Below, piece after piece: positions 6,317 to 26,265 of a stretch of DNA of 64,000 bases. A model generated the notes under the pieces. It was not told the origin of the DNA. It did no database searches and worked only from the letters and a program-made list of their open reading frames with translations. Numbering within the stretch: position 1 is the stretch's first letter; each line of letters starts with the position of its first letter. The DNA is from Glutinoglossum americanum. Taxonomy: Eukaryota > Ascomycota > Geoglossomycetes > Geoglossales > Geoglossaceae. The position numbers and the translations under genes are program-made. The stretch is from NCBI GenBank assembly GCA_020080175.1, contig JAGHQL010000019.1, positions 124,001-188,000 of the forward strand, written 5' to 3'.

Positions 6317-8062
6317 CGTATTGGAAAATGCAAGGAGTAATCTTTAAGTTAGTAGCTTCAAGACGCAAGAGACACATAAAGATCAATATACCAAAATAGA
6401 AGGTTGCCTTGCAATGAAGCTGAGTAGAGTCGAGCCTGAGGTTTCTGGTGGTAGGCGATAACTGTATCATTAGTGTGATGCTATTGGCTTAGCCCGTTGC
6501 ATAATAATATAACCTAAATAGCAACACCCGATTTTATTTTATTTTTTAAGTAGAGTTGAAATTATAGTCATGAGCGTATCTTTGTTAATTGCTTGATAGC
6601 TATAGGAGTCTCTTGAACATATGTACCATAATACAACGGTGGTCTTCGGGGGTGTGCCTAATAATTATAAGAGCCCTTCCCGAACATATGCGCCGCGATA
6701 CAATGGTATTTTTCGGGGGCGTGCCTAATGGTCGTGGTTATGGGAGTGACCCTTATCTTGGAGATTATGGTTTAAGAGGAATTGCATTGTGCAACTGGCG
6801 ATGCTGGTATTTTTTTTTCCTGCTGACTTGTGTAGTATCCTAGTACGAGATCAAATATGAGGCCTTGAACATCTACACACGTTAGCTGAAAACAAAACCG
6901 TAGGGCTTTGCGAGTCTTACTGTCGCCAGCAGCTTCCATAAAAAAGCACTACCTGCTTTGATGCATCTTGGGGTTCAGAGATGCCCAAACTTCCACTTGT
7001 CAATCTGAAGAGATGGCGAAATCCATCCAGCCCTTCACCGATAGGTTTACTTGCAATGATGTCTGGATTGGAGTCGGTCATGACAGGAGCAGAAAGACGA
7101 ACTTGGAGATATGTATGATAAGGGGCATTTTAATTCAAACAAGGACAAAGGTATCGCGGATCGTAATTTTAGGCTAGTATTTTAGAGATACGCGTGGCGT
7201 TCATAAATATGAAACGGAGAGTGCCAAGAAACGTGCAAGCTGCGGCGGCCTCATCCCGAATCTAGAGGGTGAGGGACGCCGCTCTTTGCTCGCGCGAGTC
7301 GGGTGGGTTCCAGGCGAGCATGGGTGAGTACGGGTAATTCCATGACTTCATCAATCAAATCTATTGTGGAAAACTTATAATTACGAGGCTGTTCCACATC
7401 ATATATAGGCCCTAAAACTTTCTAATAATCTGTACTTTGGGCTAACAATTTTATAGACCATCTCATCTACAATACTCCTTTCTTTCTGCCATTGCAAGCA
7501 AACATAAGGGATGACTATGGCAATAACTGCAACACTCCTCCGCGTTAGGCGTAGAAGCCAGCGTCCTAATCAGTTGTCAACCCAAGCGCTAGAGATGTAA
7601 TTGGGTATCTCCTAGCCTTTCCTGACCAAGCTATCTTCAAAGATAACAGCTTGGAGACTGGCAGATCAGCCCAGCTTACGGAACACCCTAGATCCCAAGT
7701 GATAGACAGTTATACCAGAGTTAATCCCTTACCGCTGTATATGGAACCTATCAGACAAGATAAAGCATTTATTCAGACTACTGTCCTACTTAGAAATTCA
7801 GTGATATACCTATAAGTGATGTAGTTTCATTCAAATACTGTCTAGCTACAGAGCAGCAGAACAGGAGCTACCGGGAACAACCAGATGAGATTAAGAGATC
7901 AAGGCGGCGAATACTATTTTGCAGTTGCCGTTTTTCAATATGAGCTATCAGCCTATCGACTTTGGGGTGGGACAATAAAGGCTTGTAGTAGTAGGGTATC
8001 TTGCGAAAATATGGTCAAAAAATCCTAGATGTATTCTAGAGCTACATGTTAGAATCACCTCA
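6317..8062. other. Intergenic, AT-leaning, with degenerate short repeats
   Basis: No gene recognised in about 1.7 kb. It contains a 67-bp tandem duplication (6615-6662 and 6682-6729) and a GTGAGC/GGGTGAG-rich patch near 7250-7335 resembling patches at 9.85, 17.4 and 27.65 kb. The small frames at 6589-6843 and 6968-7177 have no recognisable features. Confidence 0.45.
6615..6729. repeat. 67-bp tandem duplication, diverged by transitions
   Basis: Two copies of a ~48-bp core starting GAACATATG and ending GTGCCTAAT lie 67 bp apart (6615-6662 and 6682-6729). Almost all differences between them are C/T or A/G transitions; I count one transversion. This pattern would fit RIP acting on duplicated DNA. 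Confidence 0.6.
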
Positions 8063-8182
8063 CTTCGTCAAATTGAAGGCCTTGATCTAGTTCAGGTTTG
8101 GTAGCTCGCAATTTAGTCGAATTGAGAGCCCCGATCTAGTTCAGGTTTTAGCTTGCGATTTGATCGAATAGAGGGCCTTGAT
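8063..8182 (+). repeat. ~48-bp tandem repeat, about 2.5 units
   Basis: Units beginning CTAGTTCAGGTTT and ending GAGGGCCTTGAT or GAGAGCCCCGAT. A partial unit lies at 8063-8086, followed by full units at 8087-8135 and 8136-8182. An inverted copy of the same unit lies at 9648-9721 on the other side of the HNH gene. Confidence 0.7.
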
Positions 8183-8310
8183 TCATAATCGAGCCCCTCG
8201 ATATAATATTTACAAGCCTAATAAGAGTAGTAAGATTGGAAGACGTCACTTAGAAGGAAGGGGGATGCGTCAAGAGAATCGATGCTGTCTATTCGACTCC
8301 ATCAAGAGGC
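8183..8310 (+). repeat. Left-edge copy of the 133-bp palindrome-bearing repeat
   Basis: A diverged single copy of the repeat that forms a tandem array at 16.99-17.31 kb, in the same orientation. Shared blocks are the 15-bp palindrome ATCGAGCCCCTCGAT (8188-8202), ACAAGCC(T)AATAA, an AGATTGGA/AGATTAGGA block, and AAGAGAATCGAT followed by a CTRTCTATT stretch. Confidence 0.7.
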
Positions 8311-8362
8311 TTAATATGTTATAGTAGTTATATTTATTAGGACTGAGGTTCAAATAAATCTT

Positions 8363-9574
8363 TCAATATGCCATCATCAATACTCCAACTTCTGTGCTAC
8401 CGTTACGAGCTAGGCAGCACAGCTGATCACGATCTCTAAGGATACGCTCGATATATTCAGCCATTCCGGATGCATGGAAAACCGCACCTACTGATGCATG
8501 GACAGAAAGGAGTTTCGGGTCAGGAAGTGAGTAGCGGCCATCATGGGCAGTGAAAGTGATAAAGCCATCACTAGGTAGGAAGGAATTGTAAACGGAGGAA
8601 AATTTGCGGTATTTTTTGATATAGTAGCGATTCGGGGTAGTCTATGCATATCCTTATTAGTGATGGAGAGATAAGAAGGAGGAAAACTAACAGTTGGCTC
8701 TAAGCACAGCTCGAGTTTTCCAAATTCAGAATGCAACCCAGCCCACATAGTTAATACATTTTGTGGGTCGTTGATATTGTCCGTAGAGAAGTCGCGTATA
8801 CTGGGGAACATATGGTAGATAGCCTCCCAAATTGTGGCCTTGTAGTGACGCTGTTCTGAGAATTAGTAGATGTGAAATCCATTTAGAAGAGACAATAGTA
8901 CATCACGTTCATCAAATGCAGCTAGTGAGAATGGTATTATATGGGCTGCTTCGGTTACAGCAGTAGTAGTACTCTGTCTCTCTGCATCAGAGAGAATTTC
9001 ATCTGCCTTATTGACATCGTATACTCTAGTCAATAGACAACAGTTGCCGTCCCGAGCGAGACAGTCAGCCTTAAGCTTAGTTTGATCACGTCTCTGAGCA
9101 GTGATTTCAGCTGCAATATCATCAACATCGTCCAAATCACCACCGGGACGTGCTGAAATCGCTTTAGGTGTTTTGCCGCCGCCGGCCCGTACTGTTCCTA
9201 TATCAGTAAATAGAGAAGGATTGGGAGAATGGAGATAGAGGTTGTGGTACGAGTAGCTTTGACTAGAAGACAACGTGTAAAGAAGAGAACTTACTGGGGA
9301 TGAGAATAGATGATATATAATGATCAGCCAGCTGTCTCAGGTCATCTTTTTTATTAATAATGTCATTAGCAATGACCGTCGAGCCATCTGGTGGCAAATG
9401 ATTGAGAAAGGCATTCAAAATCCTGGAGGTTGACTCGGACGGAGATTCATTTTTGGCGTAGTCCTCAACCAAACTATGGGCAAGAGTTGCAGTGAGCGTG
9501 CCAAGTGAGGAGAGAGACGACATCATGTCATCGGAAGATGATATGCCACCGGCTGGAGAGGTCATATCTGCCAT
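8363..9574 (-). CDS. HNH endonuclease domain protein
   Basis: Predicted 337-aa protein in four exons: 9574-9295, 9197-8902, 8850-8692 and 8641-8363. The introns are 97, 51 and 50 bp, with CTAAT/ACTAAT branch-like sequences in the last two. The N-terminal ~90 residues are Ser-rich and helical. The HNH core begins at RDGNCCLLT (about residue 142). TEAAHIIPFSL supplies a candidate His (~179). NDPQNVLTM supplies Asn (~223) and the GLHSEFG segment the second His (~232). The C-terminal block (DGRYSLPDPKLLSVHAS, then VFHASGMAEYIERI) matches what I recall of a large, uncharacterised ascomycete HNH family. The catalytic triad looks complete, so nuclease activity is plausible (inference). It lies between inverted copies of a ~48-bp repeat and is transcribed away from the next gene. 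Confidence 0.8.
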
Positions 9575-10076
9575 GATTGTCTTCAGGCCTTTCGTGAATA
9601 AAAAAGGTGAGATAGGTTACGCTAGGCGGCTAGAGCTGGCAGAACCGAAGTTGCAAGCTAACCTGAACTAGATCAAGGCCCTCGATTTGACCAAATCACG
9701 AGCTACTAACCCGAACTAGACAGAAATAGCCTTTCGGTTTTATTGCTCTAGCCATCGATGGAGCTAAGAAAAAAGTTTCAAAATAGACTTAGGTATATAG
9801 TTGATATTTCTATGCTTAGATCTGAGGACTCGCTGGGTTGTGTTTGGAACGCTAACATGGGAGCGAGGTGAGCAAACCCAGGCTCATCCAGCTCACCGTT
9901 TAAGGCGGCAGCAACTGGGTGAGGTAGAGGTCAGTGCGTCGCAGTTTATCGTTTCTTTTACCGCCAAGATAATAAATGAACATTATTTAAGCTTTCTTCG
10001 ATGAGTTTGCTTCGACAACATCGTTGAAAAGATTGGTCATCAAGTGGAGGTGAGATGCAACTCTTCTATTTAGTTA
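9575..10076. other. Divergent intergenic region with repeats
   Basis: Upstream region of the HNH gene (minus strand) and of the 184-aa gene (plus strand). It contains the inverted ~48-bp repeat copy and a GGTGAGC/GCTCACC-rich patch near 9850-9925. No gene is supported. Confidence 0.5.
9648..9721 (-). repeat. Inverted copy of the ~48-bp repeat
   Basis: On the minus strand it reads CTAGTTCGGGTTAGTAGCTC and continues to GAGGGCCTTGATCTAGTTC. This is the same unit as the tandem copies at 8063-8182 but in the opposite orientation, so the HNH gene lies between facing copies. Confidence 0.7.
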
Positions 10077-10475
10077 GATCGAGCCCTTTAATATACAATC
10101 AAGCCCCTCGAAAGGATCCAATAGAGGCTTACTACAGGTTTCCCTATAGAGTAACCCGGTCAGACCAACAACGTACGTGTTCTGTAGGCACATCCCATAG
10201 ACCGGTAAGTCTTTGCTAGGTGATGAAGAGNNNNNNNNNNCGTGTTCTGTAGGCACATCCCATAGACCGGTAAGTCTTTGCTAGGTGATGAAGAGAATTG
10301 AGCACTTCTAAGCTCCTCAATATACAATCAAGCCCCTCGAAAGGATCCAATAGAGGCTTACTACAGGTTTCCCTATAGAGTAACCCGGTCAGACCAACAA
10401 CGTACGTGTTCTGTAGGCACATCCCATAGACCGGTAAGTCTTTGCTAGGTGATGAAGAGGATTGAGCACTTCTAC
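10077..10475. repeat. 164-bp tandem repeat interrupted by an assembly gap
   Basis: The unit runs from CGTGTTCTGTAGGCACATCC through GAAGAG, then an AATATACAATCAAGCCCCTCG block, and back to CGTACGTG. Equivalent points lie at 10241 and 10405, giving a 164-bp period. The 55 bp just left of the ten Ns (10176-10230) are identical to the 55 bp just right of them (10241-10295). The gap therefore probably marks a collapsed or falsely joined array. The unit carries a diverged half of the 15-bp palindrome (TCAAGCCCCTCGA). Confidence 0.8.
10231..10240. other. Assembly gap (10 N)
   Basis: Ten undetermined bases inside the tandem repeat. The true length and copy number here are unknown. Confidence 0.98.
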
Positions 10476-10511
10476 TAATTCAATTTTTTATTCTATAGAA
10501 CAATCGATAGA

Positions 10512-11130
10512 ATGCCGGCAGGGAAACGGCGAAGAAGGCATCCAAATGTCGAATCTACCAAAGCCTTACCAGACGCCCATCTTGCTGATCTTACCAGATT
10601 GGTGACTGCTCAGAAAGGTCTTGAAGCAGCACTCAACAACGTTGATGGCGAGGCATATGACCATGCTTTCAAAAGCTGGAAAGGGAATCAGCAAAAGCTT
10701 ATCGATGCAGCCGATGCACTTGCCCAAAGACCGGAACCGAAGACTACACACAAGATCGAGCTCAACGACAGCCAACGCTTAGCTTGTCGGAATTTATATA
10801 ACATAGTAAAAGAATTGCGTCTGGGCAGTACAGCTAATGATGGAGGAGAGCTCGCTTTGAAGGATGCCGCAGCGCGTATGATCACTACCATGGTAGGATC
10901 TGTAGAAGGGCCCTCGGAAGTTCCTGTGTGGATACCATCGAAATACCATATCGTCGATCCTCTTCATCCGGGTAAGTTTTATCAATAAAGCAGTATGATG
11001 TTTATACGTTGATAGATATTAACTATCTTATATAGATTACAGTAGCGAGTTTTCTTTACCAGAGGAAGAGTTTCTTCTAGCGGATAGTGATATTCCTCTT
11101 ACGACATCAATGGGAGGACAGCGGGACTAG
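10512..11130 (+). CDS. Unrecognised 184-aa cassette protein
   Basis: Two exons, 10512-10971 and 11036-11130, joined by a 64-bp intron (GTAAGT donor, TATAG acceptor). The frame continues into a short acidic tail ending at TAG. The product begins with a basic patch (MPAGKRRRRHP) that could act as a nuclear signal. A helical segment with many Ala, Leu and Lys residues follows, then a Trp-containing stretch (VPVWIPSKYH) and an acidic C-terminus (PEEEFLLADSD). No known domain was recognised. It is transcribed away from the HNH gene and toward the 233-aa gene, with only ~100 bp between the stops. The regular splice sites and codon-like composition argue for a real gene rather than repeat sequence. 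Confidence 0.72.
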
Positions 11131-11229
11131 GTATCACGATTCTATAGAACGTTTTAGTTTCAGAATCAAAGCTCAACTATTGACAAAGATGTCTCCTTGC
11201 CTAGCCAATATTGAAGCCTAAAGCCTCCT

Positions 11230-12098
11230 CTAACGCTTTGCCACCTCTTTGACGGCGAAACTCTTGTCCTTAGGATTTGTCCTGGACTTTCTTTTAAAGT
11301 ACCGACTAGTACCTATCTCTCGATAGATACCGTCTCCAAGCTTTACCATATCCCCATTTTCATCTGGAATTAGGGTCCATCTGGCTCCCTTTTCCGCCCT
11401 TTTGAAGTCGACAATATCCTTGATTTCGCTCTCATCGATGTCTTTGTCCGGTATTGCATCCCTATACTAAAGTTGTTCATTGTCAGTCGTATTTTAAGGA
11501 AAAGGTTTTCTGTAAGGTGATACTTACTGTGCGGTTGAGGAAGGCCTTGAAGCGCCTCTGATGCATTTTGTTCAGTTTAGTGAACTTGTCATCAGCTTTG
11601 ACTTTTAATTCCACCAGTTTACTTGCTTCGCCTCCCTTTCGTCTAGCTACCTTCCCATCCGTGGCGACCACTTCCTCCATATCGCTGCCTATCTCTTCGT
11701 CTTCCTCTTCCATATTAGGAACACCTAGCATATCTTTATCGTCATTATCTGACTCGTAACTGCTATCATCACTGTCGCTTATATCTTCACTCGAATGCGA
11801 AGAAGGATTGTAGGTTTCATCGTTATCGTCCTCAGAGGCATTCTTCTGCGATTCGATGTCCTATGTGTTAATATTATAAACTCCTTGATGGAAGTGAAAG
11901 AGTTGAAGCTACCTCTTCATCTCTTGTATTTGCCTTGACTTCCGCTAACGTATGAACTCCTGTCCTTTGTTTTTTGGGCGTGGACTTGCCCTGCGATGAA
12001 CGTCAAGAATCATCTAGTTGGATGTGGTTCTGTATCTAACTTACCTGTTTCTTTGCGCGCTTCTTTCCTTTAAGATCGTCTAGTGTGACGATTGGCAT
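11230..12098 (-). CDS. Unrecognised 233-aa acidic/basic protein
   Basis: Four exons, 12098-12045, 11990-11913, 11860-11528 and 11466-11230, separated by introns of 54, 52 and 61 bp, all phase 0 with GTAAGT or GTAGCT donors. The N-terminus is Lys-rich (LKGKKRAKKQ). Residues ~45-115 are strongly acidic with Ser/Asp/Glu runs (SEDISDSDDSSYES, MEEEDEEIG). A basic helical segment follows (KADDKFTKLNKMHQRRFKAF), then a C-terminal part rich in Lys/Arg (FKRKSRTNPKDK). Charge blocks of this kind are common in chromatin-associated proteins, but no domain was recognised and no function is assigned. It shares a 200-bp divergent promoter region with the AKGQ-repeat gene. Confidence 0.72.
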
Positions 12099-12298
12099 AT
12101 TTGTTGTAAGTGTTGGTTTCTAGTGAAAATGTTTTGCAAGAGAACTATACCAATGAGGATGTAACGTGTGTACGAAAACACATGCACGTGCATGGTTGGG
12201 GGTTGGGGGCTTCTGCAAATCCACGATCAAAATTTCTTTACTTTCGCACCAGTTTCATTGACCATTCCCACCATCCTCGTCCTCGCTCTGATCTCAAG
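12099..12298. promoter_or_regulatory. Divergent promoter region inside the cassette
   Basis: 200 bp separating the start codons of the 233-aa gene (minus) and the AKGQ-repeat gene (plus). No specific site is claimed. Confidence 0.4.
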
Positions 12299-13051
12299 AT
12301 GGGTGAAACCACGGCACCACCACCAGCCACAAAAGGCCAGAAGGACGCATCGTCGGCCGCAAAAGGCCAGGAGAACGAATCGTTGACTGCAAAAGGCCAG
12401 GAGAACACACCGTTAGTCGCTAAAGGCCAAAAGGGCATGCCATCAGTCACGGCAGGCCAGAAAGACGCATTATCGGCAGCTAAAGGCCAAAATGACATGC
12501 CATTAGCCACGGGAGGCCCATCGTCGGCCGCTGAAGTCCAGAAGGACAGGAACCATTATGCATTCAATACCGCTGGTGTTGCATATGATTACCAGATGCC
12601 GGAACGTCAACAGTTTCTTCGAATCAGCGTACGAGGTATTTCTAGCAGTCCACTGAAGTTAGATTCAAGCACATCAGTTCCTCCGATAAGCCCTACACCC
12701 GAGGAACTTGACTACACCCAGGGAGCGGAACAGGTCTTATGGGTTGGTATGTCCTTGATGACGTCCGTTGGTCAGTCTTCATCCGGTAAGGGGCAAGCGA
12801 ACCCAGGAACTACGCAGCCACCACCAAAGCGACGACGAGGACCGAAGCCTTCCAAAGTTAGTATCGACAGTGAAAAGCCTTTCGATATCATCCCATATAG
12901 CAGTCAAGCACTACGAGTTGTCGTCCGCTATAAGGGTAAGAACGCGAAGCTGTATGCTCTTGTCGAGCCTATGGATGGACTGTGTAAGGGCTATACGCGC
13001 TCGGTAGATGAGGTTTTCTACTTTGCCGAGTTTCGCGATGACGTCGATTGA
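12299..13051 (+). CDS. AKGQ-repeat protein, 250 aa, unrecognised
   Basis: Open frame from ATG 12299. The frame is open upstream to 12110, but the extra 63 residues look like translated leader, so the inner start was chosen. Residues ~8-75 form six to seven imperfect 11-residue repeats with the core AKGQ(K/E)(D/N), visible as a 33-bp DNA period. Then come a Pro/Ser region, a basic stretch (PPPKRRRGPKPSK, possible nuclear signal) and a ~65-residue C-terminal segment predicted as beta-rich (ALRVVVRYKGKNAKLYALVEP). No domain was recognised. The stop overlaps the start of the next gene by 14 bp in another frame, which is unusual for a fungus. Confidence 0.6.
   Translation: MGETTAPPPATKGQKDASSAAKGQENESLTAKGQENTPLVAKGQKGMPSVTAGQKDALSAAKGQNDMPLATGGPSSAAEVQKDRNHYAFNTAGVAYDYQMPERQQFLRISVRGISSSPLKLDSSTSVPPISPTPEELDYTQGAEQVLWVGMSLMTSVGQSSSGKGQANPGTTQPPPKRRRGPKPSKVSIDSEKPFDIIPYSSQALRVVVRYKGKNAKLYALVEPMDGLCKGYTRSVDEVFYFAEFRDDVD
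12320..12530 (+). repeat. 33-bp coding tandem repeat (11-aa AKGQ units)
   Basis: Six to seven diverged 33-bp units with the constant core AAAGGCCA(G/A) inside the coding region. The repeat preserves the frame, which argues that the encoded peptide is under selection or arose by in-frame duplication. Confidence 0.7.
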
Positions 13052-14035
13052 AGATAGGAGAAAAAAGTGGCAGGAAATCATTCGCGATGCGGTTAACGCC
13101 AAATCCAAAACTGAAGTTAAAAGTCTCAAGACATACGATACCACGAGAATCGATGTTCCATGGGGGTTGAGCTTTGCCAACGAGGTCCAGTCACTGGTGG
13201 CAATGTATACAATCCAACCGGAATCATGGATCCTTGACGCCCTGCTCGAATTGTTGAAAAGAGTTGACCATGACCTTTCATACTGCCCTTCAACGAAGAA
13301 TGTTTATCTCCATAAGTTGATAGACATCGAGAAAAAGTTTGGTGAGGGTGATGCTGAAAATGTCCTTCCGGAATGCCTGGTAAGTTTTTTTTTTTTTTTG
13401 AAGCCTTTACCTCTGAATACCTTTTGACGATAATCTTCCTATTACAGGTACTTTGGCCCGAGTTGGAAGAGCTGGATCTAGTCCCAGGCGATGTAATGGA
13501 GTTGGCGAACGGCCTCCGGCAAGGAAAGGTTACACTGGAATACCGTTTGATTCGGGGCGTCCTTGTAGATTGGAAGAGGAGGTGTCAAGAACGTGGCGCC
13601 GGCTTTAAAGACCTGGCGGAGGCCGTACTTTCAACTCGCAAATACGTCCTCCTTCAGATCGGCGAAATACTACCATCGAGCAAGTCCATTAAATCCGACG
13701 CGGTCACTGCCTTTGTCAAATGCGAGGCTGATTACCTCCGATCTTTGACTGAATACGGCAAGCGCTTCGCTGAAGCTTTGAAAGACTCTCAGGGTAACCA
13801 GACTGTCGCTTTAGATCTACCAGCTATCTGGGCCAACTTCAAAGATAAACCCGATGTCGACAGTGCAAGGCTATACGCTATCAACGTTCACAGGTACAGC
13901 GTTACACAAATGATGGCTAAGGATCAAGCTATCGGACAGAAGTTGAATGGGCATGTTATATTTCTCGACCGCTTTCTGGAGTCGTTGAAATTGGCGGCTG
14001 GAGAAGAGGAAGTTACAACTGACAGTGATGAGTGA
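13038..14035 (+). CDS. Unrecognised 309-aa cassette protein
   Basis: Two exons, 13038-13379 and 13448-14035, joined by a 68-bp intron (GTAAGT donor, ATTACAG acceptor) containing a long T run. The start ATG at 13038 overlaps the last 14 bases of the upstream gene; an in-frame ATG at 13008 would add ten residues. The product is mostly helical with charged faces (IEDRRKKWQEIIRDAV, VTLEYRLIRGVLVDWKRRCQERG) and a C-terminal acidic tail (EEEVTTDSDE). No membrane segment or recognised domain was seen. It converges on the SNF2-type gene with about 190 bp between stops. The overlap may reflect a frameshift or sequencing error that split one gene, or two genes sharing a promoter. Confidence 0.7.
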
Positions 14036-14227
14036 GCAGGGGGTTTCTTAGTTTAATCTAAGTTGTTAAGGAATCAAGAATAGTTTTTTATTACTACTTT
14101 GTGCCAATCTCATCCTTCACCTGAATGAACTAGTCTCGTAGGCAACAGCTGTAACATCAATGCACAAGACTCCAGAACCTCCATCAAGCCTTTCGAGCAG
14201 AACAAGCTATTGCATAGCCATGCTCCT

Positions 14228-16831
14228 TCAGTAGTGTTTAGCGATTTCTGGAATAGATATTGGATCCCCAGGAAAATGACGAAGAGGTTTCATAATCTCT
14301 TCGATCGTTTTTATCTTTGCATCGCGAATCGTTTCTATCAGGATGTCGATGGACGAATTGCTTGCCGTTACCGCCCATACAAAGACAGTCTTCTCTTGCC
14401 CTTGTCGATATAGTCGACAGTCTGCTTGGCGTTCATCGTTCGCATTCCACCATGGTTCGCACCGGACAATATGTTCCCCTGAAGCAAGATTGAGACCAGC
14501 CCCACCGGCTCCAGACGAAATCAGCAGGATGACAGAACTTTTGATGTTGTTGAAACGAGATTTGACCGCAGTTCTCTCCTCGTTGTCTAATGTTCCATCG
14601 AAGCGTAATATAGCCTGGTTGGGTTTGGATTTCCTTTGCAACGCTTGTTCAAGGATATCAAGGAATCGGAGAAACTTCGAAAAGATAACTATCTTCGCAC
14701 TGGGGGTGCCTTTGAGGATATGTTGATATATGTCGATAATCGCCGTGACACGGGGGGAAAGGAGAACCTTGTCTGGCATCCCTCTGACTGTAGTGAGCCA
14801 TGCTAGTCGACTATTGGTCTTTGTAATCTTCTCTAGTAGTTCTTCATCCGTATCACTTTCCTCTTCCTCGAGCTCGCTCTCTTCCTCTTGAAAGTCACTT
14901 CCTTCCCCTTGCGAGCCACCTCCTTCCTGAAGCTTGTCTCCCTCCTGAAGGTTATTTCCTTCCCCCTGGTTGCTACTCTTTTCTTTCCTGGTATTATTAC
15001 CCCTATCGGTGGTAGCGCGATCTTTCGACTTGCCAAATATCATAGCATCCACAAGACGCTTTACCTCAAGCCTTTCTGCAGTGCCCAGCGTTCCACCATC
15101 AATCAATTTACCCCGAAGTGATGTCGCGACTACCTCAGTAGCGAAGGTATCGTATGGTTGGCTTTGGCGCTTTTGCTTTATGAGTGCTGGATGAGCAGCA
15201 TGTTGTTGCGCGCGAACGGCAAATGACATAGCTTTCATTGCCTTATCATTCTGTATCATATTTCTGCCGGCCGTAATACCCTCAAACCTTAGGCACTCAA
15301 AGAATTTGCTGACATAATGAAACACTATGTTTGCCTGTTCCTCACCAAGCTTGAACTCTTTCGCCACAACGTTTTTGCCTGGCAGTTTCAGCAATTTTGA
15401 TGGCCTCGCAATGGTGATTGCCATCAAGAATTTTACTAAGCGTGCCCGTTTCGTTGGTGCAGGGTCTAACCAGGTTCGATCAAACCTGGTGCCGAAAGTG
15501 TGCATGAAGCCTCTCCGAGTCTGAAATGGGTGTCCTGGGAGGAAATCGAGAACCCCGAAGACATCGTGCCACTTATTTGATAAAAACGTACCCGACAACA
15601 TGATGTTGCGGGAATAGTAAAGGCTCTTGACCGCTTTATGTGCAACTCCGTGCTCTTTCTTGGCGTACTGAACTTCATCTAAAACAATATGACGGATAGG
15701 CATGTCAAGATCCCGATACAATTCGGAGAATAGGGAAAGTGTTGGCCGTCGAGGTATTTTCGCCCCCGGCTTGCTTCCGGCCTTGTCGATCATTTGCATG
15801 TCTCGTTTGAAATTTTGCAATAGGCGGTACTGTGACCTCAAGAACCCATAACTGCAGATAACGATATCATAGTCTGCATCAAGGAGTTTAGTGGCAGTCA
15901 TCTTTGGATCTTCGAGTACAAATACTCGCGGTTGGAGATCCTGAAATAAACTGATCAGTCAACAGGCATTGTATGACTAAAGGGTAGAAACCTCACAGGC
16001 TTAAAGTGATATACCGTTTCCTCATACCATTGGGGTACACAAGACTTCGTAGTCACAACTAGATCAAAGATACCTGGTACTGCCTTTCTGGAAAGCTGCA
16101 GTGCCAACAATGTACCTAGAGTCTTTCCAAGTCCCATTTCATCAGCCACTATACAACCACGATTGGGTCCTTGACAGCAATGGTTAATCTTTGTAGCAAG
16201 ATCTAGCTGCCACGACCGAGGCTCCGTTGAAAGTTCCGGAAGAGCTGTTGGTAACATTGGCGCTACAGCGTATAAGTCTCTCTAAATTGGCATTGAAAGG
16301 TTAGTAGGAGATTAGGGAACAAGAAAGCACCTGCTTGGAACTTACTATGCGGTTGCTGTATTCACTACCTAGATAGTCATGTACCCGCATAACATTGCCT
16401 GCTACAACGATATCACCTTCCCCAACTGCTTCATCAATGTCTTCGTCCTGCATTTCGTCTGCAGAAAATTCGTCTGTGTCACTCTCTGACTCAGAGCTAT
16501 CTCCCTCATTTCTATAGGTAGAGTCGCTGCCAAGTTCTATCACATCGTCAAGAACCTCATCCGAATGCAAGTCTTGAGAAGTTGCTTGAAAGTCTAGGTT
16601 GCTACCTCTTTCAGATTCCATATCTGTATCGGTGTCGCTCTTATGATCCAGAGTGGCAGCGCTAATGCTGCTAGGCAAAAGGAAATTGCCGGGCTCAATA
16701 TGCTTGATGATGTTGCTCACAAGCTCAACATAACTCTCAACAACCTGGAGGCCAAACTGAGGGCCTGTACAGCTATCTAGAGCTGCCGCCCTTCTCTGAG
16801 GGTCCTCAATGAGCACATCAAGTAGCGCCAT
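14228..16831 (-). CDS. SNF2-family (Rad5/16-like) DNA-dependent ATPase
   Basis: 827 aa in three exons: 16831-16346, 16281-15997 and 15940-14228. The introns are 64 and 56 bp. The first ~160 residues are acidic (SSESESDTDEFSADEMQDEDID). The ATPase core follows: the Q-like segment RSWQLDLA, motif I ADEMGLGKT (about 208-216), motif Ia VVTTKSCVPQW, motif II VLDEVQYAKK (about 345; DEVQ where DEAH is usual), and motif III MLSGTFLSNKWHD. A charged low-complexity insert rich in Glu, Ser and Lys (about 560-610) separates the two lobes. The second lobe has IVIFSKFLRFLDILE, RFDGTLDNEER, LLISSGAGGAGLNLA and motif VI RQADCRLYRQGQ. Known role of the family: ATP-driven translocation on DNA and chromatin remodelling. 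All core motifs are present, so it should be active (inference). No RING domain was seen. It forms the right side of the repeat-bounded block. Confidence 0.9.
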
Positions 16832-16997
16832 TTTTGCGAGACTTGTGATGGGTAGGCGGACAAAGTATGTGGAGTGGAGTGGAGTTGTGAGATCTTGAGT
16901 GGTGAGGGGTGCTTAGCATTATGAAAACAGTTTGAAAAAACATTTGACGACACTAGATGCGAATTTTAATCGATGTATTTCTGTCTTGTGTCACTAG

Positions 16998-17310
16998 ATC
17001 GAGCCCCTCGATGCGACCGTTTGCAAGCCCAATAATAAGTGCAGCGAGATTAGGAGAAATGGCTTTTAAGGAAAATACGTTAAAGAGAATCGATACTATC
17101 TATTTGGTCAAATGGAGGGTCTGATACATGATCGAGCCCCTCGATGTGACCGTTTGCAAGCCCAATAATAAGCGCAGCGAGATTAGGAGAAATGGCTTAT
17201 AAGGAAAATGCGTTAGGAGGATCGACACTACCCATTTAGTCAAATAGAGAGCTTGATACATAGATCGAGCCCCTCGATACGACCGTTTGCAAGGCTAATA
17301 ACAGCGGTAA
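16998..17310 (+). repeat. 133-bp tandem array with 15-bp palindromes
   Basis: About 2.4 units with an exact 133-bp spacing between palindromes ATCGAGCCCCTCGAT at 16998-17012, 17131-17145 and 17264-17278. Each is followed by GACCGTTTGCAAG and (C/G)(C/T)AATAA. The same repeat occurs once at 8183-8310 in the same orientation, so the two copies flank the six-gene block as direct repeats. Confidence 0.85.
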
Positions 17311-17317
17311 AGCGTGT

Positions 17318-17400
17318 AGGGCGCATTTTTGTTTTCTTCTATAAAAATACGCTCCGACTTCACCCTAATTTGGCAATACAAGACAACAAAAATGCGCCCT
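17318..17400. repeat. 83-bp inverted-repeat element (MITE-like)
   Basis: A perfect 16-bp inverted repeat, AGGGCGCATTTTTGTT at 17318-17333 and its complement at 17385-17400, with a 51-bp spacer. No clear target duplication is visible. It could be a miniature transposon or simply a hairpin. Confidence 0.55.
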
Positions 17401-17466
17401 GCACTCACCTGCGGCTCACCCAGGTGACGCCGCTTTAGCCGAGTGAGCTGGGTGAGGCAGCACGAG

Positions 17467-17653
17467 AGGCTAGGGAATCCAGGAGGCCAGAGAATTTGGG
17501 AGGCTAGAGAATCTGAGAGGCTAGAGAATTCGAGTAACTAGAGGATTTAAAAAGCTGGAGAATTTAGGTAGCTAGAGAATTCTAGAAGCTAGAGAATTCA
17601 AGAAGCTAAAAAATTCAAGAAGTTAAAAAATATAGAAAGTATGAAGATATCTA
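17467..17653 (+). repeat. 17-bp minisatellite, about 11 units
   Basis: Consecutive 17-bp units of the type AGGCTAGAGAATTYGAG. The left units are GC-richer, and the right units lose G and C step by step (AAGCTAAAAAATTCAAG, AAGTTAAAAAATATAG) until they merge with the AT-rich tract. Confidence 0.75.
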
Positions 17654-18961
17654 ATAAAGCTAAAGAATTTAAAAAGCTAAAACATATAATAACTAAAGTA
17701 TTTAAGAAGTATATAAGTAATTTTATTAGTAATTACTTTATTTCTTTAAATACTTTCATACTTTAATTATTTAAAAAATTTAATTTTGCTTTAAAATATA
17801 ACTAAAGTTTCTATATTTACTTTTTTTTATATTTTAGTTATTAAAAAATTAGATCTAACTTTAATATATTTTTATATTTAAAGTTAGAAAGTCAAAACTA
17901 GATTCAATTATAAATAACAATATCTAAAATTATTTAAAAACTATTTTTTAATAATAAATAATTATATTTTTATAATATATTCATAATAAATAAGTTAGTT
18001 ATATAAAATAATATTAAGTTCTTCAATAAAACTGAAAAATAAAAAAATTAAAAAAACTAACTTTATAATTTTTGCATAATAAATTTTTATCTATTTTTAT
18101 ATTATTACTTTTATTAAGCTTCTTAATATAATTATTTATAAAATTAATAATATAGTAAGATATTTTTAAACTTATTTAGATTATTTAATTTACTTAAATA
18201 TATAAAATAATATTATTTGATTAGAAAATACTAAACATATTTTATTTTTTATCTTTTAAAATCATTTTCATTATAATTTATTACTTTATTTACTTATTTA
18301 AACTTTATATATTATACTTTTTATTTAGAATAAATAAATTTTTTGTCAACTTTTTTGATCTATTTAACTTTATAATAATATAATTATATTATAAGTTATT
18401 ATCAAATCTTATTACTATTGAGTATAAAATATTATTTTTATTATAATATCTAATAATATAATATTTATAAAGTCATTTCAGTTTACTTTACTATCTTTAT
18501 AGTTCTTAACTTAATATATATTATTAGTACTAATGATTTTCTTTTTTTTACTTCTTTTAAATTATTAAACTTTGAGAAGAAATTATAAAAAATAAAATAA
18601 AATATTAAGATAAAATTTAATTTTTTTATTAACAATACTATTATCACAAGCTCATAAAGATTATATATATACTTTTACTTTTATATTTATATTAATAATA
18701 ATATTATATTACTTATAAATAACTTACTTTTGGTAAATAATATAATAATAATAATTATAGTAAGTTAAAAAAAGAGATAAAGTTTGATAACTATATAAAG
18801 TAGAATATTATACTTACAAATAAAAATGAAAAGAAAATTATTAAATGAAAAAGAAAAGTTTAAAAAAGTTTGATAAAGTAAATTTATAAAAAAATAAAAT
18901 AAGTAAATAAGAAAGTTAATAATACAAACATATAACTTACAACTATATTTAAATAAAATTA
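17654..18961. other. Extremely AT-rich tract (left part)
   Basis: About 1.3 kb with hardly any G or C, no open frames and no recognisable element. The composition is what heavy RIP or long neutral decay leaves. The same kind of sequence resumes at 21094 after the MULE, so the transposon split one tract. Confidence 0.8.
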
Positions 18962-21102
18962 GGGCAAAAGAACGATATACCCTGTATTTTATGCGTAAAG
19001 AACTATCTACCCTGTAATTAAATTTAAAGAACTATATACCCACACCGCACACCCTTTGTCTATTGATGAGGGCGACGACAAGTCTGAGCATTATGCCCAG
19101 ACTCTCCACAGGTTCCGCACCTGTGAACGAGGTGCTCCCTGAGAAGTACATCTGTACCCATATCTTGCCTCGTCAGTTCTCGAGGTGCTCGAGCATCTTC
19201 TGTCCGGATCCACTCCTTCTTCGGTCGCCCCCGAGGCACCTTTGTTACTGGAGGGTTGCACTCCTTATCGGTTGGCTCAAGCCCGACAATATTGACTGCT
19301 GGAAGATTGGTGGCATATGTCGCTGCCCACGTTGCTGTCGACAGTGATGCAGGGAGGAAGGTCTCAAGCGTGCATCCTTGCATAAAGATATAGGTCATGA
19401 CATAGCCGCAGGGAATACCATTGGCCTGGTATCGTCGACAGGAGCAGGTTCCATCACGGAGGCTGACGACATGAATATCGTTATTTGCTTGGATCACTCG
19501 TCCTTCGTCAGACGACGAGAGTTGAGCCTGTCGGTAGGTAGTTAGTATAGTATAGAATAGATAGAAATTGACTTACTCGATTACTCTGTGCCCATTTTCT
19601 CCCTTCTTGCACTACTGTAGTGACGAATGAGGTATATTGTATACCAGTCGTAATAGCTTGCAGCGCCTCTGTGTAGCGTTGTGAATGTAGCTACATTGTA
19701 CGATGCCAAATCATATCGAGAAGTTCAATAATATTGAGTTCTCGGTCGAGTTTGAGAATATTATTCAGACTCTCAACAATATTACTAGTATCGTGGCCAT
19801 ACCAATGGCCAGGAAAGTGCGACTCCGACTAGAGTTGTGGGTCGACATTGCGGAGATACTCCTCTGCCTTTTTCTTGACCTCCCCGATCTTCACTAGCGT
19901 TGCCTCAAAAGCAGTAGATGTGCGTGCTCGTGCTGCCTGCCAAAAGAGTGCCGACAGGCCTTGCCCGAAGTGTTTTGTAAAATTTTCCTTCAGGTGACGA
20001 CAGCAGTAAGCTCTTGTCACTCGATTTCCGAGCACCTGCTCTGCCTCGAGTAGGCCTTTGTCTCTGTCGGAGACTAACGTACAGGCTTCTGTTGAGACTT
20101 CTGGTAAAGCCCACCGGAGATGGCGGAAAAACCACTCCCAAGAGTTGTAGTTCTCCGATTCTACTACCCCCTAGGCAAGCAGGAGATTGCGACCGTCAGC
20201 GTCGATACCGACGGCAAGGAGAAGAGTAAGAATGAAATGAGCCTTTAGAAAGGTCCCATCAACGGCAAGGAATCATCGACAGAGGTGGAAAGAAGCACGT
20301 GATTGTGCAGGGCAGATAAAAAAGCGGCCAAAGCTCTAAGAGACCGGATCTATAGCGAGATCCAGATAGACATCTGGAGCTAAGGCTTCCAAACGCTGTC
20401 GGTATGCTGGTAACAGCCGAAAGCTATACCGCTGTGCTCCGATGCTCCCATTAAGGAGTCGGAGGCGACAGAGTTGAGCTACCTTGTAGCTTACTTCTTC
20501 ACCAAAGCGGACTCGAAGGCAGTCAATAATTGCCTTTGAAGAGGTAGCTTTCGTCACGCAGAGGTGACGAGACACTGCCTCGTCCAGCCAGGCAGCACTA
20601 CTGGCAGCACGAAACTTGCTAACACTAGCGCTGAGGCACTGATGAGTACTTTCAATAATAGAAAGGACTAGCAATCCCTCCCGGTTCCTTCGTACCCGAC
20701 ATTTCCAGGGACAGCTCGCCGTTGTATACGTAAAGGTAGCTAAATTTGGCTCTTTTTTGGGTGTCCGAAAGGAGAATTTGTCCTTAACCGCCCAGTTGTT
20801 AAGAGCACAGCGGAGGTTCGACTAGCAGGTATACTCTGTGCTGTCGAGAGGTACAGCAAGTTCACTAACAGCAGCCATAAAGTGTCGACAATGGGGTGGT
20901 AATGGCGGGGTCGATGACAGCAAGGTCGATGACAATGAGGGCAGCAGCAATGTTGAATTCGATGATATCCTATAGAGCAGTCAGTAATTGAATGCGTCGC
21001 GTCACATAGAATGGGGTATATAGTTCTTTAATTTTACTTACAGAGTATATTATTCTTTTACTAGCGAATACAGGGTATATCGTTCTTTCGCCCATAAAAT
21101 TA
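18953..21102 (-). mobile_element. Mutator-like (MULE) DNA transposon with 9-bp target duplications
   Basis: The element spans 18962-21093 (2132 bp), bounded by identical 9-bp direct repeats ATAAAATTA at 18953-18961 and 21094-21102. The inverted ends are long (~80 bp), begin GGGC(A/G)AAAGAACG, and contain three spaced copies of an AAAGAACTATATACCC-like motif at each end. The transposase gene lies on the minus strand. The 9-bp duplication and the transposase type are both known MULE hallmarks. The element is much richer in GC than its surroundings, so it entered after they had decayed. Confidence 0.93.
19060..20878 (-). pseudogene. MULE transposase, inactivated
   Basis: A transposase reading frame of ~590 codons starts at ATG 20878 and ends at 19060. 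One intron (about 19584-19532, GTAAGT donor, ACTAAC branch, GACAG acceptor) joins the catalytic part to the C-terminus. Landmarks: AVDGTFLKAHF with the first catalytic Asp, LVSDRDKGLLEAE with the second, CCRHLKENFTKHFG, WYGHDTSNIVESLN, then a SWIM-type zinc region (CSCRRYQANGIPCGYV) and a zinc knuckle (CGTCGESGHNAQTC). About six in-frame stops are seen (near 20823, 20337, 20265, 20172, 19835 and 19697). All are TAG or TGA and each can be explained by one C-to-T change on one strand. The SWIM histidine is Tyr (CAT to TAT), a change of the same kind. This fits light RIP, so the copy should be dead. Confidence 0.88.
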
Positions 21103-21324
21103 TCCTATTACTATTATTAGTATTATTTGATAGAGGTATTAAATAATTAGTAAAAAAAACTAAAAGTATAAGTTTTAAAAATAAGTTTTTATCACCTTTT
21201 TTATATTTATATAAATAATTTAAAATAGGATTTAAACTAATTAATTACTTACTTAAAATCAGTAATATTACTTTTTTAAATAAAAATTTATATTTATATT
21301 TCTATAATATATCTACAAAGATAA
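21094..21324. other. Extremely AT-rich tract (right part)
   Basis: Continuation of the tract at 17654-18961 on the far side of the MULE, ending where the first solo LTR begins. No gene or element was recognised. Confidence 0.7.
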
Positions 21325-21666
21325 TGTCATGGCACGTAGAGTCGCAAGGGATAGAGTTCGCGAGTGCGAACCAGCATGTGGTCTGTACTCGAGCTAAGCC
21401 CGCAAGCTCTTCTTTTAATCGACGGAGTTGATCCTTCAACCTCCATTAGTCAACACACTTCTTGTATGTAGTTTATCTAATAGAAGCCACCCGGTAGCTC
21501 ATATCTATCCTCCTACTCAGCCTATCTGTTCCTGACATCTCGCCGGACCTCCTGCCGAGTCGTGACACCTATTTGAGCTCAAGAACTCATTCGCGAGTCT
21601 ACAGACGACCTTCCGAATGACCTCCTCAAGCCTCAAGTGCCTGTGGCACCCCCCTAGGACCTGATA
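21325..21666 (-). mobile_element. Solo LTR, family B (342 bp)
   Basis: Reverse-oriented solo LTR with TG/CA-type ends and identical 5-bp flanks GATAA (21320-21324 and 21667-21671). It matches, in the opposite orientation, the copy at 26266-26607 over its full 342 bp. No internal coding part was seen, so it is a fossil left by recombination between LTRs. The superfamily cannot be assigned. It is diverged from the other copy and is probably the older of the two. Confidence 0.88.
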
Positions 21667-21721
21667 GATAATATTGAGTCTTTCAATTAAATTAAATATA
21701 TAGTTAATATCAAGTCTTCCG

Positions 21722-21890
21722 CCACTACCCATGCTCCTATATGAAGTTCCTATGATGCCTATGCGATTCCTTCACTACTGGCCGTGCTTTTATATGAAGT
21801 TTCTATGATGCTTATACGGTTCCTTCGCCGCTAGCCATGCTCTCATATAGAGTTTCTATGATACTCATGTAGTTTTTTCACTACTATATC
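21722..21890 (-). mobile_element. LTR family A fragment (internal tandem part)
   Basis: Three or more ~55-bp units of the CTCCTATATGAAGTTCCTATGATGCC type, the reverse complement of the minisatellite inside the family A LTRs. It is a truncated, diverged remnant. Confidence 0.65.
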
Positions 21891-21914
21891 ATGACCCACA
21901 GTCAGTTACTCAGT

Positions 21915-22601
21915 TGTTACGGTGGCCACCAGGTAAGGGCCCAGTGGGCCACTAAACAAGCTGAGAAGGAGGGCTAGCCCTGAGGAAGGCCGGCGGAGCA
22001 TAGGGGGGTCCACCCTATACGTAATACACTAAGCCGGTGACATACGAGGGGGGCCCGCAAGGCCCCACCAATGACGTCATCATAGGAACTCCACATGGGA
22101 GCACAGCTGGCGAAGGAACCGCACGGGCATCATAGGAACTCCACATGGGAGCACGGCCGGTGACGAAGGAACTGCACGGGCATCATAAGAACTCCACATA
22201 GGAGCACGGGCAGCGGCGGAAGGCATGGCCGGTGGTGAGGGAACCACATGGGCATCATAAAGACTTCCCAATGGAAGCACGGCCAGAGGCGAGGGGTCCG
22301 TACGCGTCCATGGACGTGGGTCCGTACGCGTCCATGGAGGGAACTGGGCAGGTCCTTACCCATGGGTCCCTCAGGGCCATTAGTATATATAGAAGGCCGA
22401 GGAGGGTCCGGAAGGGAACCTCATCGGTCAATACCATAATCACATTAGATAGACTATCAAGGACCATTAGGCCTACCCTTCCGTCGTACTACACAGCCGG
22501 CCCCCCCTTGCTCCGTCGTGACCGGCCTCTTAGGGCTAGCTCGGTCTTGACGCCCGCGGCACCCAACCTTCGCGGCCTAGCTTATATAAGCAGCCGTCAC
22601 A
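21915..22601 (+). mobile_element. Solo LTR, family A (687 bp)
   Basis: Starts TGTTACGGTGGCCACCAGG and ends CAGCCGTCACA. It is flanked by identical 5-bp repeats TCAGT (21910-21914 and 22602-22606). Inside lie a ~50-bp minisatellite (CATCATAGGAACTCCACATG units) and, near the end, a CTTATATAAG box. No coding region is attached. It is a fossil solo LTR; superfamily unknown. The frames that cross it are translations of the repeat. Confidence 0.88.
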
Positions 22602-23052
22602 TCAGTGAGGCCATTTAGGCCTCCGTGGCTGGGTAACTAACTCGGATTATGCAAATGGCAACTCGTCTATATGGCTATATGAATTCTGCAAGCATACATT
22701 CTTATTGCTTTATGATATTTGATCTATTGTTGAATGTCCATTGTGTTATAAGTAGCTCACTAGCCTCCTACTGGAGGTTAGCAATCAGTTCTTTTACATT
22801 TCCTGCTTACTAGAATTAAGTTTATTCCACCTACTCTATATTCTAAACTGGACTAATGTCAAGTCGCTCTGAACTATCGACCATTAAGTTCATCTATTAG
22901 ACCTCGTATATCTAAACCTTACCTAGATACAGATCAGTCGGCCAGCTATCATTATCACTGCAAGGTGCGACGTTACACTATTATCAAACTTCCTAGATCC
23001 CTCGACGTCAGAGTACCTTTATGTCACCTTAGCATCGAGAGTTTTTATACGC
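22602..23052. other. Unassigned sequence between LTR copies
   Basis: About 450 bp of moderate GC without an open frame or a recognisable element. It may be decayed internal sequence of an older element or original target DNA. Confidence 0.4.
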
Positions 23053-23248
23053 CGGCTGTACTCTCATATGGAGTTTCTTTATGACATCATTGGTAGGGTC
23101 TTGTAGGCCCCATTTGTATATCACACCAGCTTAGTATATTATGTATAGGGTAGTCCCCCCTATATTTTGCTGGCCTTCCTTAAGGCTAACCCTCCTTCTT
23201 AGCTTATTTAGTAACCCATCAGGCTATTACCCAGTAGCCACTATAACA
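23053..23248 (-). mobile_element. LTR family A fragment, inverted
   Basis: Corresponds to the first ~200 bp of family A in reverse orientation, ending in the terminal CACTATAACA. It is truncated on the left and diverged. A scrap of family B follows at about 23308-23340. Confidence 0.7.
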
Positions 23249-23348
23249 GAAGTTTGGTAGAATGTTAGAAGTAGATACGCTAAGTAGTGGAATGGATATA
23301 GAACTGTCAGGTAGCTTCTATTAGATGAACTATGTACAAGAAATATAT

Positions 23349-24174
23349 TGTTACAGTGGCTACCGGGTAAGGGCTTGATAAGCTACCAAACAAGCTGAGA
23401 AGGAGAGCTAGCCCTAAGGAAGGCCAGCAGAGCATAGGGGGGACCACTCTATACGTAATACACTAAGCCTGTAATGTGTAGATAAGAACTCGTGCACATT
23501 ACCACTCAGGCAAAAGACCACAATATTAGCCAACAGACTAATACGTTCTTACACCGTACTTATATATAGAGCTGCATGTAACACGACGTTAGTACACCAG
23601 TGATGCCCTACTGCACCCGACCATTACAAAGCTAGTGACATACGAGGAGGGCCTGCAAGACCCCACTAATGATGTCATCATAGGAACTTCATATGGGAGC
23701 ACGGCCGGCGAAGGAACCGCACAGATATCATAGGAACTCCACATGGGAGCACAGCCGGTGGCGAAGGAACTGCACGGGCATCATAGGAACTCTACATAGG
23801 AGCACGGGCAGCGGCGGAAGGCATGGCCAGTGGTGAGGGAACCGCACGGGCATCATAAGGACTCCCTAATGGAAGCACGGCCAGAGGCAAGGGGTCCGTA
23901 CGCGTCCATGGAGGGAACCGGGCAGGTCCCTACCCGTGGGTCCCTCAGGGCCATTAGTATATATAGAAGGCCGAGGAGGGTCCGGAAGGGAACCTCATCG
24001 ATCAATACTATAATCACATTAGATAGACTATTAAGGACCATTAGGCCTACCCTTCTATCGTGTCACATGGCCAGCCTCCTTTGCTCCGTCGTAACCGACC
24101 CTTTAGGGCTAGCTCGGCCTTGACGCCCGCAGCACCCAACCTTCATGGCCCAGCTTATATAAGCAGCCGTCACA
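23349..24174 (+). mobile_element. LTR family A copy with a nested short LTR
   Basis: Starts TGTTACAGTGGC and ends GCAGCCGTCACA, directly before the left end of the pogo-like element. It contains the ~50-bp minisatellite and a 159-bp insertion at 23470-23628. The 5-bp flanks do not match (TATAT and AAAAT), so this copy may be a recombinant between two insertions. Confidence 0.8.
23470..23628 (+). mobile_element. Very short solo LTR (159 bp) nested in family A
   Basis: Ends TGTAATG and CATTACA form a 7-bp inverted repeat with the canonical TG/CA. The flanks AAGCC and AAGCT are near-identical 5-bp target duplications. The empty site is visible at the matching place of the 21915-22601 copy. The size suggests a small (TRIM-like) or Copia-type LTR. 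It is younger than the LTR it sits in. Confidence 0.75.
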
Positions 24175-25259
24175 AAAATGTATTTCACAAGCAAGCTAGC
24201 CACACAAGCTGGTTGGCCATCTTGACTCCAAATACATAAACATCACGAACTAGCCCCAATGTCTTGTAAGACGCATTTAACCAGCCCAAATTCTGAAGGG
24301 CAAGTTCTCCTAGCTATGCAAGCCTTCAACAAAGGACAATTTAAAAGTCTTTGAGCTACTATCCAAGCTTATGATATTCCTCGCACAACAGTACAGGATT
24401 GAAGAAATGGAAAAAAATCGCGTCGAAACTGTCTACCCAATGACTGAAAACTTACTCTAATAGAAGAATCAGTTCTCGAAAAGTGGGCACTTTCAATAGA
24501 TGAACAAGGCTTTCCCCTGAGAATACATATAATATGACAAATAGCTCAACTGTTACTGAATGAACATACAAAAGCAGATTTGGTCAAACCTCATCCGATA
24601 GGAATTAATTGGGCCAACAATTTTATTCGGCAGCATGAAACATTAAAATCAAAGTACTCCTGCAAATATAGTTACCTACGAGCCAAATGCGATAATTCAG
24701 AAGTTGTTAAAAGTTGGTTTGAACGCATCCATAAGAAGGTTACAGAATATGGGATTGTTCCGGAGGATATTTACAACTTCGATGAGACTGGATTCCAGAT
24801 GGGAGTCACAACTATTGCAAAAGTTGTTACGAATTCAGAGAAAAGAGGGCGACTAAGGTTAACTCAACCAGGAAATTGGGAGTGGGTTACTACAGTAGAG
24901 GTAATCAATTCTTCCGGATAGGCAGTACCACCAATGATTATCTTTCAGAGAAAGATACATCAATCTCACTGGTACGAAGATCAAATACTTTCTTCCGACT
25001 GGGTTATTACTCTTAGTGATTCTGGTTGAACAAATGATAAACTTGGTCTGATCTGGCTTAAAGAAGTATTCGATAAACATATAAAATCTCAAAGAGTAGG
25101 ATGATATCGATTACTAATAATGGATGGCCATAACAGTCATGTTACAGCAGAATTCGATCAGTATTGTTTCAGTAATTCGATTATTCTACTTTGTATGCCT
25201 CCTCACTCTATGTATATACTTCAACTACTAGATGTCGTTTGCTTTTCCATTTTAAAACG

Positions 25260-25975: not shown

Positions 25976-26265
25976 AAATGGGCTTATGGAAGTCAAATTA
26001 AAACTTTTATAAGAGCTAGTATCAACCATATCAATAAGCGGGAATTTTTAACAGCATATAAAGTTACCAAGTTATTAGTCTTAAGTGCTAATAACATTAA
26101 AGCTAGTTTTGCTACTACTAGACTGGTCCCTTATGATCCAAACTAAGTACTTTCTGGACTTAATTCTGGGATTGGAAATATTATCCCCCTGGAACAAAAT
26201 CTTCAACCAACTTGGGTACCTGAGACTCCTCAAAACCTTTCTGCATTACAAATGCAGTTCAAATC

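Follow-up and report, generated by a model that had tools for sequence, protein, structure and literature searches.

Starships are described as giant transposons of the Pezizomycotina that bring along their own captain, the recombinase that moves them, so that small captain-less pieces carrying one to four genes would differ from that description. In published accounts, Starships range from 15 to 700 kb, 15 kb being the smallest (PMC12134995), the captain of the Starship Sanctuary lies about 350 bp from the 5' edge (PMC12506042), terminal inverted repeats occur in 18 of 20 A. fumigatus Starships, and the captain is necessary and sufficient for transposition (PMC12153272). Two other kinds of element invite comparison. 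Non-autonomous DNA transposons, including miniature inverted-repeat transposable elements (MITEs), have ends but no mobilizing enzyme and are presumed to be moved in trans. Crypton elements are fungal tyrosine-recombinase elements of a few kb. The DNA considered here is a stretch of 64,000 nucleotides from Glutinoglossum americanum, hereafter the window (C101:124001-188000; the assembly totals 25.8 Mb over 317 contigs, and C with a number denotes one of its contigs throughout). It carries an HNH gene and, beside it, a block of genes termed B, C and D/E together with a SNF2-family ATPase gene. An initial annotation had taken these for a single six-gene cassette bounded by a 133-bp repeat; the region is best explained as a set of adjacent units of cargo that belong to a family of Starship-type transposons. 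As far as the open-access literature could be surveyed (subscription papers and preprints fall outside that scope), no account of captain-less miniature Starships, or of the HNH/SNF2 cargo described here, was found; one listed paper, PMC12720139, contains both terms, Starship and HNH.

End sequences, facing pairs and the captain

Two related types of end sequence, L and R, face each other around cargo in this genome, and L is like the ends found beside captains. Both types are 65 to 95 bp long, they are mutually inverted, and their outermost motif is CTTGGC or TTGGC. Profiles built from five seeds each were run with nhmmer over 230 kb, rows with E values of 0.001 to 1 not being counted as ends; when each seed was left out in turn all ten were re-found, the worst at 1.1e-6 (L of C90) and the other nine at 3e-10 or lower, including R of C90 at 1.8e-15. 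L ends occur in the window at 17366-17458 (plus strand, interior rightward; E 7e-27, or 7.5e-22 with the seed left out) and at 9880-9971 (minus strand, interior leftward; E 4e-22, left out 3e-12), and also on C198, C286 and C90. R ends occur in the window at 7222-7299 (plus strand, interior rightward; E 1e-20, left out 3e-10) and 27705-27784 (minus strand, interior leftward; E 6e-23, left out 1.2e-17), and on C198, C90, C264 and C286, the last of these (E 9e-6) not having been a seed. The DNA of window 17360-17470 recurs across the genome in at least 11 rows on 9 contigs, with L-like matches that include C283 (twice), C106, C43 and C40.

The connection to captains comes from two further contigs. 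On C190 an L end, CTTGGCGATACAAG, begins 348 bp upstream of the ATG of an inward-reading DUF3435 tyrosine recombinase gene (60.6 bits in the genome search, 44.1 bits on one exon), a putative captain whose match holds three stops that introns could explain. The L end on C48 leads into DNA that resembles the stretch between L and captain on C190 (68% identity over 358 bp). When a profile is built from no more than these two captain-side ends, it picks up all five of the captain-less L ends in the 230 kb, with E values of 8.8e-26 and 1.3e-8 for the window ends at 17366 and 9880, and of 2.3e-24, 4.5e-20 and 6.3e-6 for the remainder. The next row, at 7.7e-4, is a weak 29-bp L-type remnant on the minus strand at about window 17312-17342 (E 0.013 with the five-seed L profile). 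In L, which is the end compared, the units therefore resemble an enzyme-bearing member at C190 in the same genome, as non-autonomous members of a family do. An L end with a DUF3435 gene first, some 350 bp inward, is also the arrangement of a Starship, as are inverted repeats at the two ends and accessory cargo between them.

It is very unlikely that L and R belong to an ordinary short, MITE-like DNA transposon that has nothing to do with captains and was inserted by chance upstream of the C190 gene. Such a transposon would account for long, inverted ends that also surround a gene-free piece of 412 bp, and for the dispersal of L. It would leave unexplained that C190 and C48 have in common both L and the DNA that follows it, that no R end lies between L and captain on C190, and that L and captain there stand 348 bp apart, the same distance as in a known Starship, Sanctuary (PMC12506042).

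DUF3435 genes are plentiful in the genome as a whole: the Pfam profile PF11917 gave 37 rows, 36 of them over the cut-off, and none in 14 control genomes. One of the 37 rows, that on C190, adjoins an L end. None of the 37 lies on C101, C90 or C48, and on C101 and C90 the captain's place is occupied by the HNH gene or gene B. The earlier statement that no recombinase was seen thus holds for the contig itself in the DUF3435 search, but on other contigs of the genome a DUF3435 gene has ends like these next to it.

Facing pairs of L and R were found at five places. At window 7219-9971 a putative captain-less element of 2753 bp, on the minus strand, has an R end at its left, the HNH gene within and an L end at its right. 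On C198 a pair spans 1832 bp around a complete, different HNH_2 gene (62.3 bits); on C90, 5362 bp (110223-115584) around B-C-D/E-SNF2; on C286, 412 bp in which no gene was seen; and at window 17366-27786, 10421 bp of transposon remains. The C198 and C286 loci were chosen because they carry the 133-bp repeat or its palindrome. The C90 locus was fetched for its genes only, so that the ends bracketing it constitute an independent test. The HNH proteins of C198 and the window are distant (30% identity over 70 residues), and the ATG lies 340 bp from the L end on C198 and 394 bp from the outer motif of L in the window.

The units are not classed as Starships, because no captain is present in those of the window and C90 and the sizes (412, 1832, 2753, 5362 and 10421 bp) fall below the published 15-700 kb (PMC12134995). 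With MITEs and other non-autonomous transposons they have in common ends without a mobilizing enzyme, presumed movement in trans and one gene-free piece of 412 bp; they differ in having ends like those next to a tyrosine recombinase gene and, in some pieces, intact genes. The link to a tyrosine recombinase and the size of a few kb recall Cryptons, whereas here the recombinase is of the DUF3435 type, inverted repeats are present and the small units contain no recombinase.

Several observations weigh against a reading of these pairs as mobile members of a captain family. The CTTGGC or TTGGC found at both extremes of the pairs inspected belongs to the end sequence itself, and for that reason a target duplication is not proven. 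In the window the SNF2 block is flanked by two L ends that point away from it, and the one L sequence that adjoins the SNF2 gene is the 29-bp remnant, on the side opposite to L on C90; either the ends of this block have decayed or the block lies within rearranged elements. Among the six loci outside C101 that were fetched for block genes, both ends occur only on C90 and R alone on C264, with no end at C19, at the two places on C39 or in 3 kb at C213. No R end was found in the 3.5 kb read at C190, and on C48 only the 5' DNA matches, no PF11917 captain being detected there. The 133-bp repeat of C286 sits just outside the 412-bp piece and not within it, which counts against a simple subterminal reading of that repeat.

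Two smaller observations concern other ends. On C222 an L end is present, with no R end at E values up to 1 within the 1.5 kb read. On C286 the sequence at L055:6110-6145, which lies immediately beyond R of the 412-bp piece, resembles by eye the opening of L in the window HNH element. Two elements may meet end to end at this point, where the L profile had no row.

The SNF2 module and its second copy

The gene content of the block was established from spliced models with introns of conventional type. The HNH_2 gene (8363-9574, minus strand) encodes 337 amino acids in 4 exons, and its HNH_2 domain scores 36.8 bits in Pfam against a cut-off of 21. It is followed by gene B (10512-11127, plus strand; 184 amino acids, 2 exons), gene C (11233-12098, minus strand; 233 amino acids, 4 exons, acidic, its last splice acceptor set by eye), gene D/E (12299-14035, plus strand; D at 12299-13051 and E at 13038-14035, with the split at about 13038-13051) and the SNF2-family ATPase gene (14228-16831, minus strand; 827 amino acids, 3 exons), whose SNF2-rel_dom (55.8 bits) and Helicase_C (52 bits) domains are both above their Pfam cut-offs. 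The HNH and SNF2 assignments and the alternating orientations given in the initial annotation are therefore correct. B and C are assigned to no family, and no Pfam family was found above its cut-off for the frames of B, C, D or E.

Searches of the genome itself revealed that the order and strands of the block recur at C90:110683-114661, where part of B, then C, D (residues 78-249), E and exon 1 of SNF2 are found. The DNA of the two blocks is 68-72% identical, and the alignment continues across introns and the spacer between D/E and SNF2. On C90, D and E form a single stop-to-stop frame of 343 codons (301 codons from the ATG to the end of the first exon), and relative to it the window lacks 8 bp, so that D terminates and E begins within that frame. 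D and E are thus one gene, and what had been counted as four unrecognized proteins with intact frames reduces to three unknown genes, one of them split in the window. On C90 gene B is missing its 5' part and about 2 kb of SNF2 has been lost. The damage to the two copies is complementary: B, C and SNF2 are open but D/E is split in the window, while D/E is open but B and SNF2 are truncated on C90.

Selection on the module was assessed from the ratio of nonsynonymous to synonymous substitution rates (dN/dS, NG86) between the window and C90 copies. The ratio is 0.19 for D/E (461 codons; bootstrap 0.14-0.26), 0.13 for C (186 codons), 0.34 for SNF2 exon 1 (140 codons; 0.19-0.52) and 0.20 for B (54 codons; 0.09-0.46); of 200 bootstraps, 32 were dropped for C and 39 for B. 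The dS between copies is 0.9 to 1.9, with C and B near saturation. Ratios this low between copies mean that for much of the period after the copies diverged selection acted on the genes as proteins, and in B-C-D/E-SNF2 the gene order has been preserved in a module under purifying selection. The proposal of an accessory, possibly mobile block gains from this recurrence of gene order, as it does from the confinement of the 133-bp core to few sites in the genome.

The HNH gene does not belong to the recurring module. It was not found at the C90 copy in the own-genome search; its nearest paralog is on C19 (62-71% identical by exon; dN/dS 0.185, NG86, 334 codons, bootstrap 0.13-0.25) and a distant one, at 30%, is on C213. 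The expectation that the genes would co-occur in the same order is accordingly borne out within this genome for B-C-D/E-SNF2 and not for HNH, which has its own facing ends at 7219-9971. A six-gene unit bounded by the 133-bp repeats is rejected on the same grounds, the C90 block lacking both HNH and any palindrome within 20 kb. Fragments of the block-type SNF2 gene also occur once on C264 and twice on C39, where a SNF2 relic (18669-18445) and a DUF3435 relic (19507-19274) lie about 600 bp apart on the same strand. Other SNF2 matches outside these loci, at 28-38% identity, were assumed to be separate SNF2-family genes.

An old segmental duplication of a host locus, in which transposons arrived later and the ends are bystanders, would be an improbable origin for the two copies. 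Both the alignment of introns and spacers, which is as good as that of the exons, and the age of the copies, shown by a dS of about 1 or more, would be expected of it. Comparison of the window with the 20 kb around C90 revealed no homologous flank beyond the block, the end repeat excepted, and the C90 copy sits between facing ends; both speak against a duplicated locus.

Possible movement in trans, relics or satellites

The account that we favour, with somewhat better than even confidence, is that the units derive from a Starship-type family as miniature, captain-less forms whose cargo is HNH genes or the SNF2 module. A full member of the family would have L as its 5' end, a DUF3435 captain about 350 bp inward and, probably, R as its 3' end. 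The small derivatives would have retained L and R without the captain: two with one HNH gene each, one with B-C-D/E-SNF2 and one with no gene. Since a captain is described as necessary and sufficient for transposition (PMC12153272), pieces with both ends could move in trans, and a captain encoded elsewhere in the genome would most likely be what recognizes the ends and moves the small units. The HNH genes on C198 and in the window would occupy the captain's usual slot. From their families, HNH may act as a nuclease and SNF2 as a chromatin or DNA translocase, and they might contribute as useful host genes, as a defence against rival elements or as a help with chromatin and integration.

The main rival, which we consider possible but distinctly less probable, is that the small pieces were never mobile themselves and are decay relics of large Starship-type elements that lost the captain and most of the cargo by internal deletion. 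Decay is evident in the many DUF3435 rows that hold internal stops, in the C90 block, which is short of part of B and of about 2 kb from SNF2, and in the SNF2 fragments on C39 and C264. Against this reading, two HNH pieces with distant HNH genes have the same layout, each gene standing first after L at 340-394 bp; the frames of both genes are open, and purifying selection is seen on HNH.

Captain-less derivatives moved in trans might also, at some stretch, form a standing class of Starship satellites that keep the captain's ends, have HNH where the captain gene would stand and, by means of HNH or SNF2, take advantage of the captain or direct it; at the extreme the HNH protein itself would drive movement. 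This is an unlikely elaboration, drawn by analogy with phage satellites, which exploit phages as the small units would exploit Starship captains.

It is important to emphasize what the favoured account would mean. Small cargo pieces may ride on Starship machinery, and if so, captain-driven gene movement is wider than captain-first searches reveal. The locus supplies concrete end sequences to search for, offers a small substrate of natural origin with which to ask what a captain requires, and adds a co-travelling SNF2 module of unassigned function that has been under purifying selection.

The 133-bp repeat and neighbouring features

The repeat that had been proposed as the boundary of the cassette does lie at both edges in the same orientation. 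The right repeat (16995-17301, plus strand) is a 133-bp tandem repeat of 2.3 copies with three exact palindromes, and the left repeat (8158-8320, plus strand) holds one, at 8188-8202; the left edge at 8158-8282 is 73% identical to the right repeat over 129 bp. The palindrome, ATCGAGCCCCTCGAT, is exact at window 8188, 16998, 17131 and 17264. When as many as 3 mismatches are allowed, the window has 15 matches to it against 1.7 expected, a count that none of 100 shuffles reached; the 15 correspond to 10 distinct sites, as a palindromic site may count on both strands. Genome-wide there are 12 exact copies on 3 contigs (C101, C198 and C286) and 8 with one mismatch, against 1 for a reversed-pattern control. 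For the 133-bp core pattern the genome has 11 sites, spread over 3 contigs, and for its reversed control none, so the repeats are not genome-wide background. With up to 2 mismatches the palindrome was not found in the 20 kb around C90, nor in the fetched C19, C39 and two C101 flanks, and the 133-bp repeat therefore does not bound the block at C90.

DNA like the left window repeat is found immediately interior to L in the C198 element (78% over 67 bp) and in the C286 piece (81% over 36 bp), and the right window repeat resembles C198 DNA (78-80% over 41-45 bp). The palindrome also lies upstream of HNH (9672) and of B (10098 and 10327), each with 2 mismatches, and upstream of SNF2 and of the C198 HNH gene. 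Counter to a promoter role, it is found 3' of HNH as well (8188) and is missing at C90. The palindrome would fit better as a subterminal repeat than as a promoter element. It is highly improbable that repeat and palindrome belong to a Helitron: the C286 repeat does lie about 0.9 kb from Helitron_like_N and PIF1 frames, but the same repeat DNA is found within the L-to-R element of C198, and there was no Helitron among the window frames given to Pfam, the window not having been scanned with the Helitron profile. RepHel frames were seen near the C286 repeat only, a statement subject to the same limit for the window.

The tandem units that hold copies of the palindrome measure 133, about 139 and 57 bp. 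ATCGAGCCCCTCGAT is conserved within tandem units that are otherwise unrelated (L055:5541-7401 and L069:2359-2487 on C286; L068:2694 on C198), which raises the question of whether it serves as a site for binding or is itself mobile as a tiny palindrome. On C264 a one-mismatch copy (L052:3939-3953) lies about 330 bp from the SNF2 relic (L052:4282-4482), with the R end at 3561.

Attempts to place the unassigned proteins were made by several routes. With E exon 2 of the window and C90 aligned as query, 0 of 66 pattern-matching stretches in viral_contigs and 0 of 72 in genome_contigs were confirmed as relatives of D/E, neither collection holding fungal genomes. Comparison with the PDB, HNH included, gave nothing beyond chance-level matches, and single-sequence AlphaFold models were too poor for use (pLDDT 40 for E exon 2 and 33 for D). 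Upstream of gene B, a 149-bp duplication on the plus strand (10082-10230 and 10311-10459, 98% identity) surrounds a 10-N assembly gap at 10231-10240, and an assembly artefact is possible across 10082-10459. A HET domain was also detected among the window frames by Pfam; together with the DUF3435 genes and the intron style it marks the genome as fungal.

To the right of the block the window holds remains of other transposons; the initial annotation had noted neither these nor the four L and R ends in the window. MULE-type remains at 18962-21093 have 80-bp inverted arms (83% identity) and a SWIM domain above its cut-off (24.2 bits), with DBD_Tnp_Mut and MULE domains slightly below theirs. At 21320-26612, inverted arms of 350 bp (81%) surround a DDE_1 transposase fragment (37.4 bits) and nested 53-bp minisatellites. 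The G+C content of 18001-19000 is 12%, far under that of the rest of the window; decay resembling repeat-induced point mutation is a guess at its cause.

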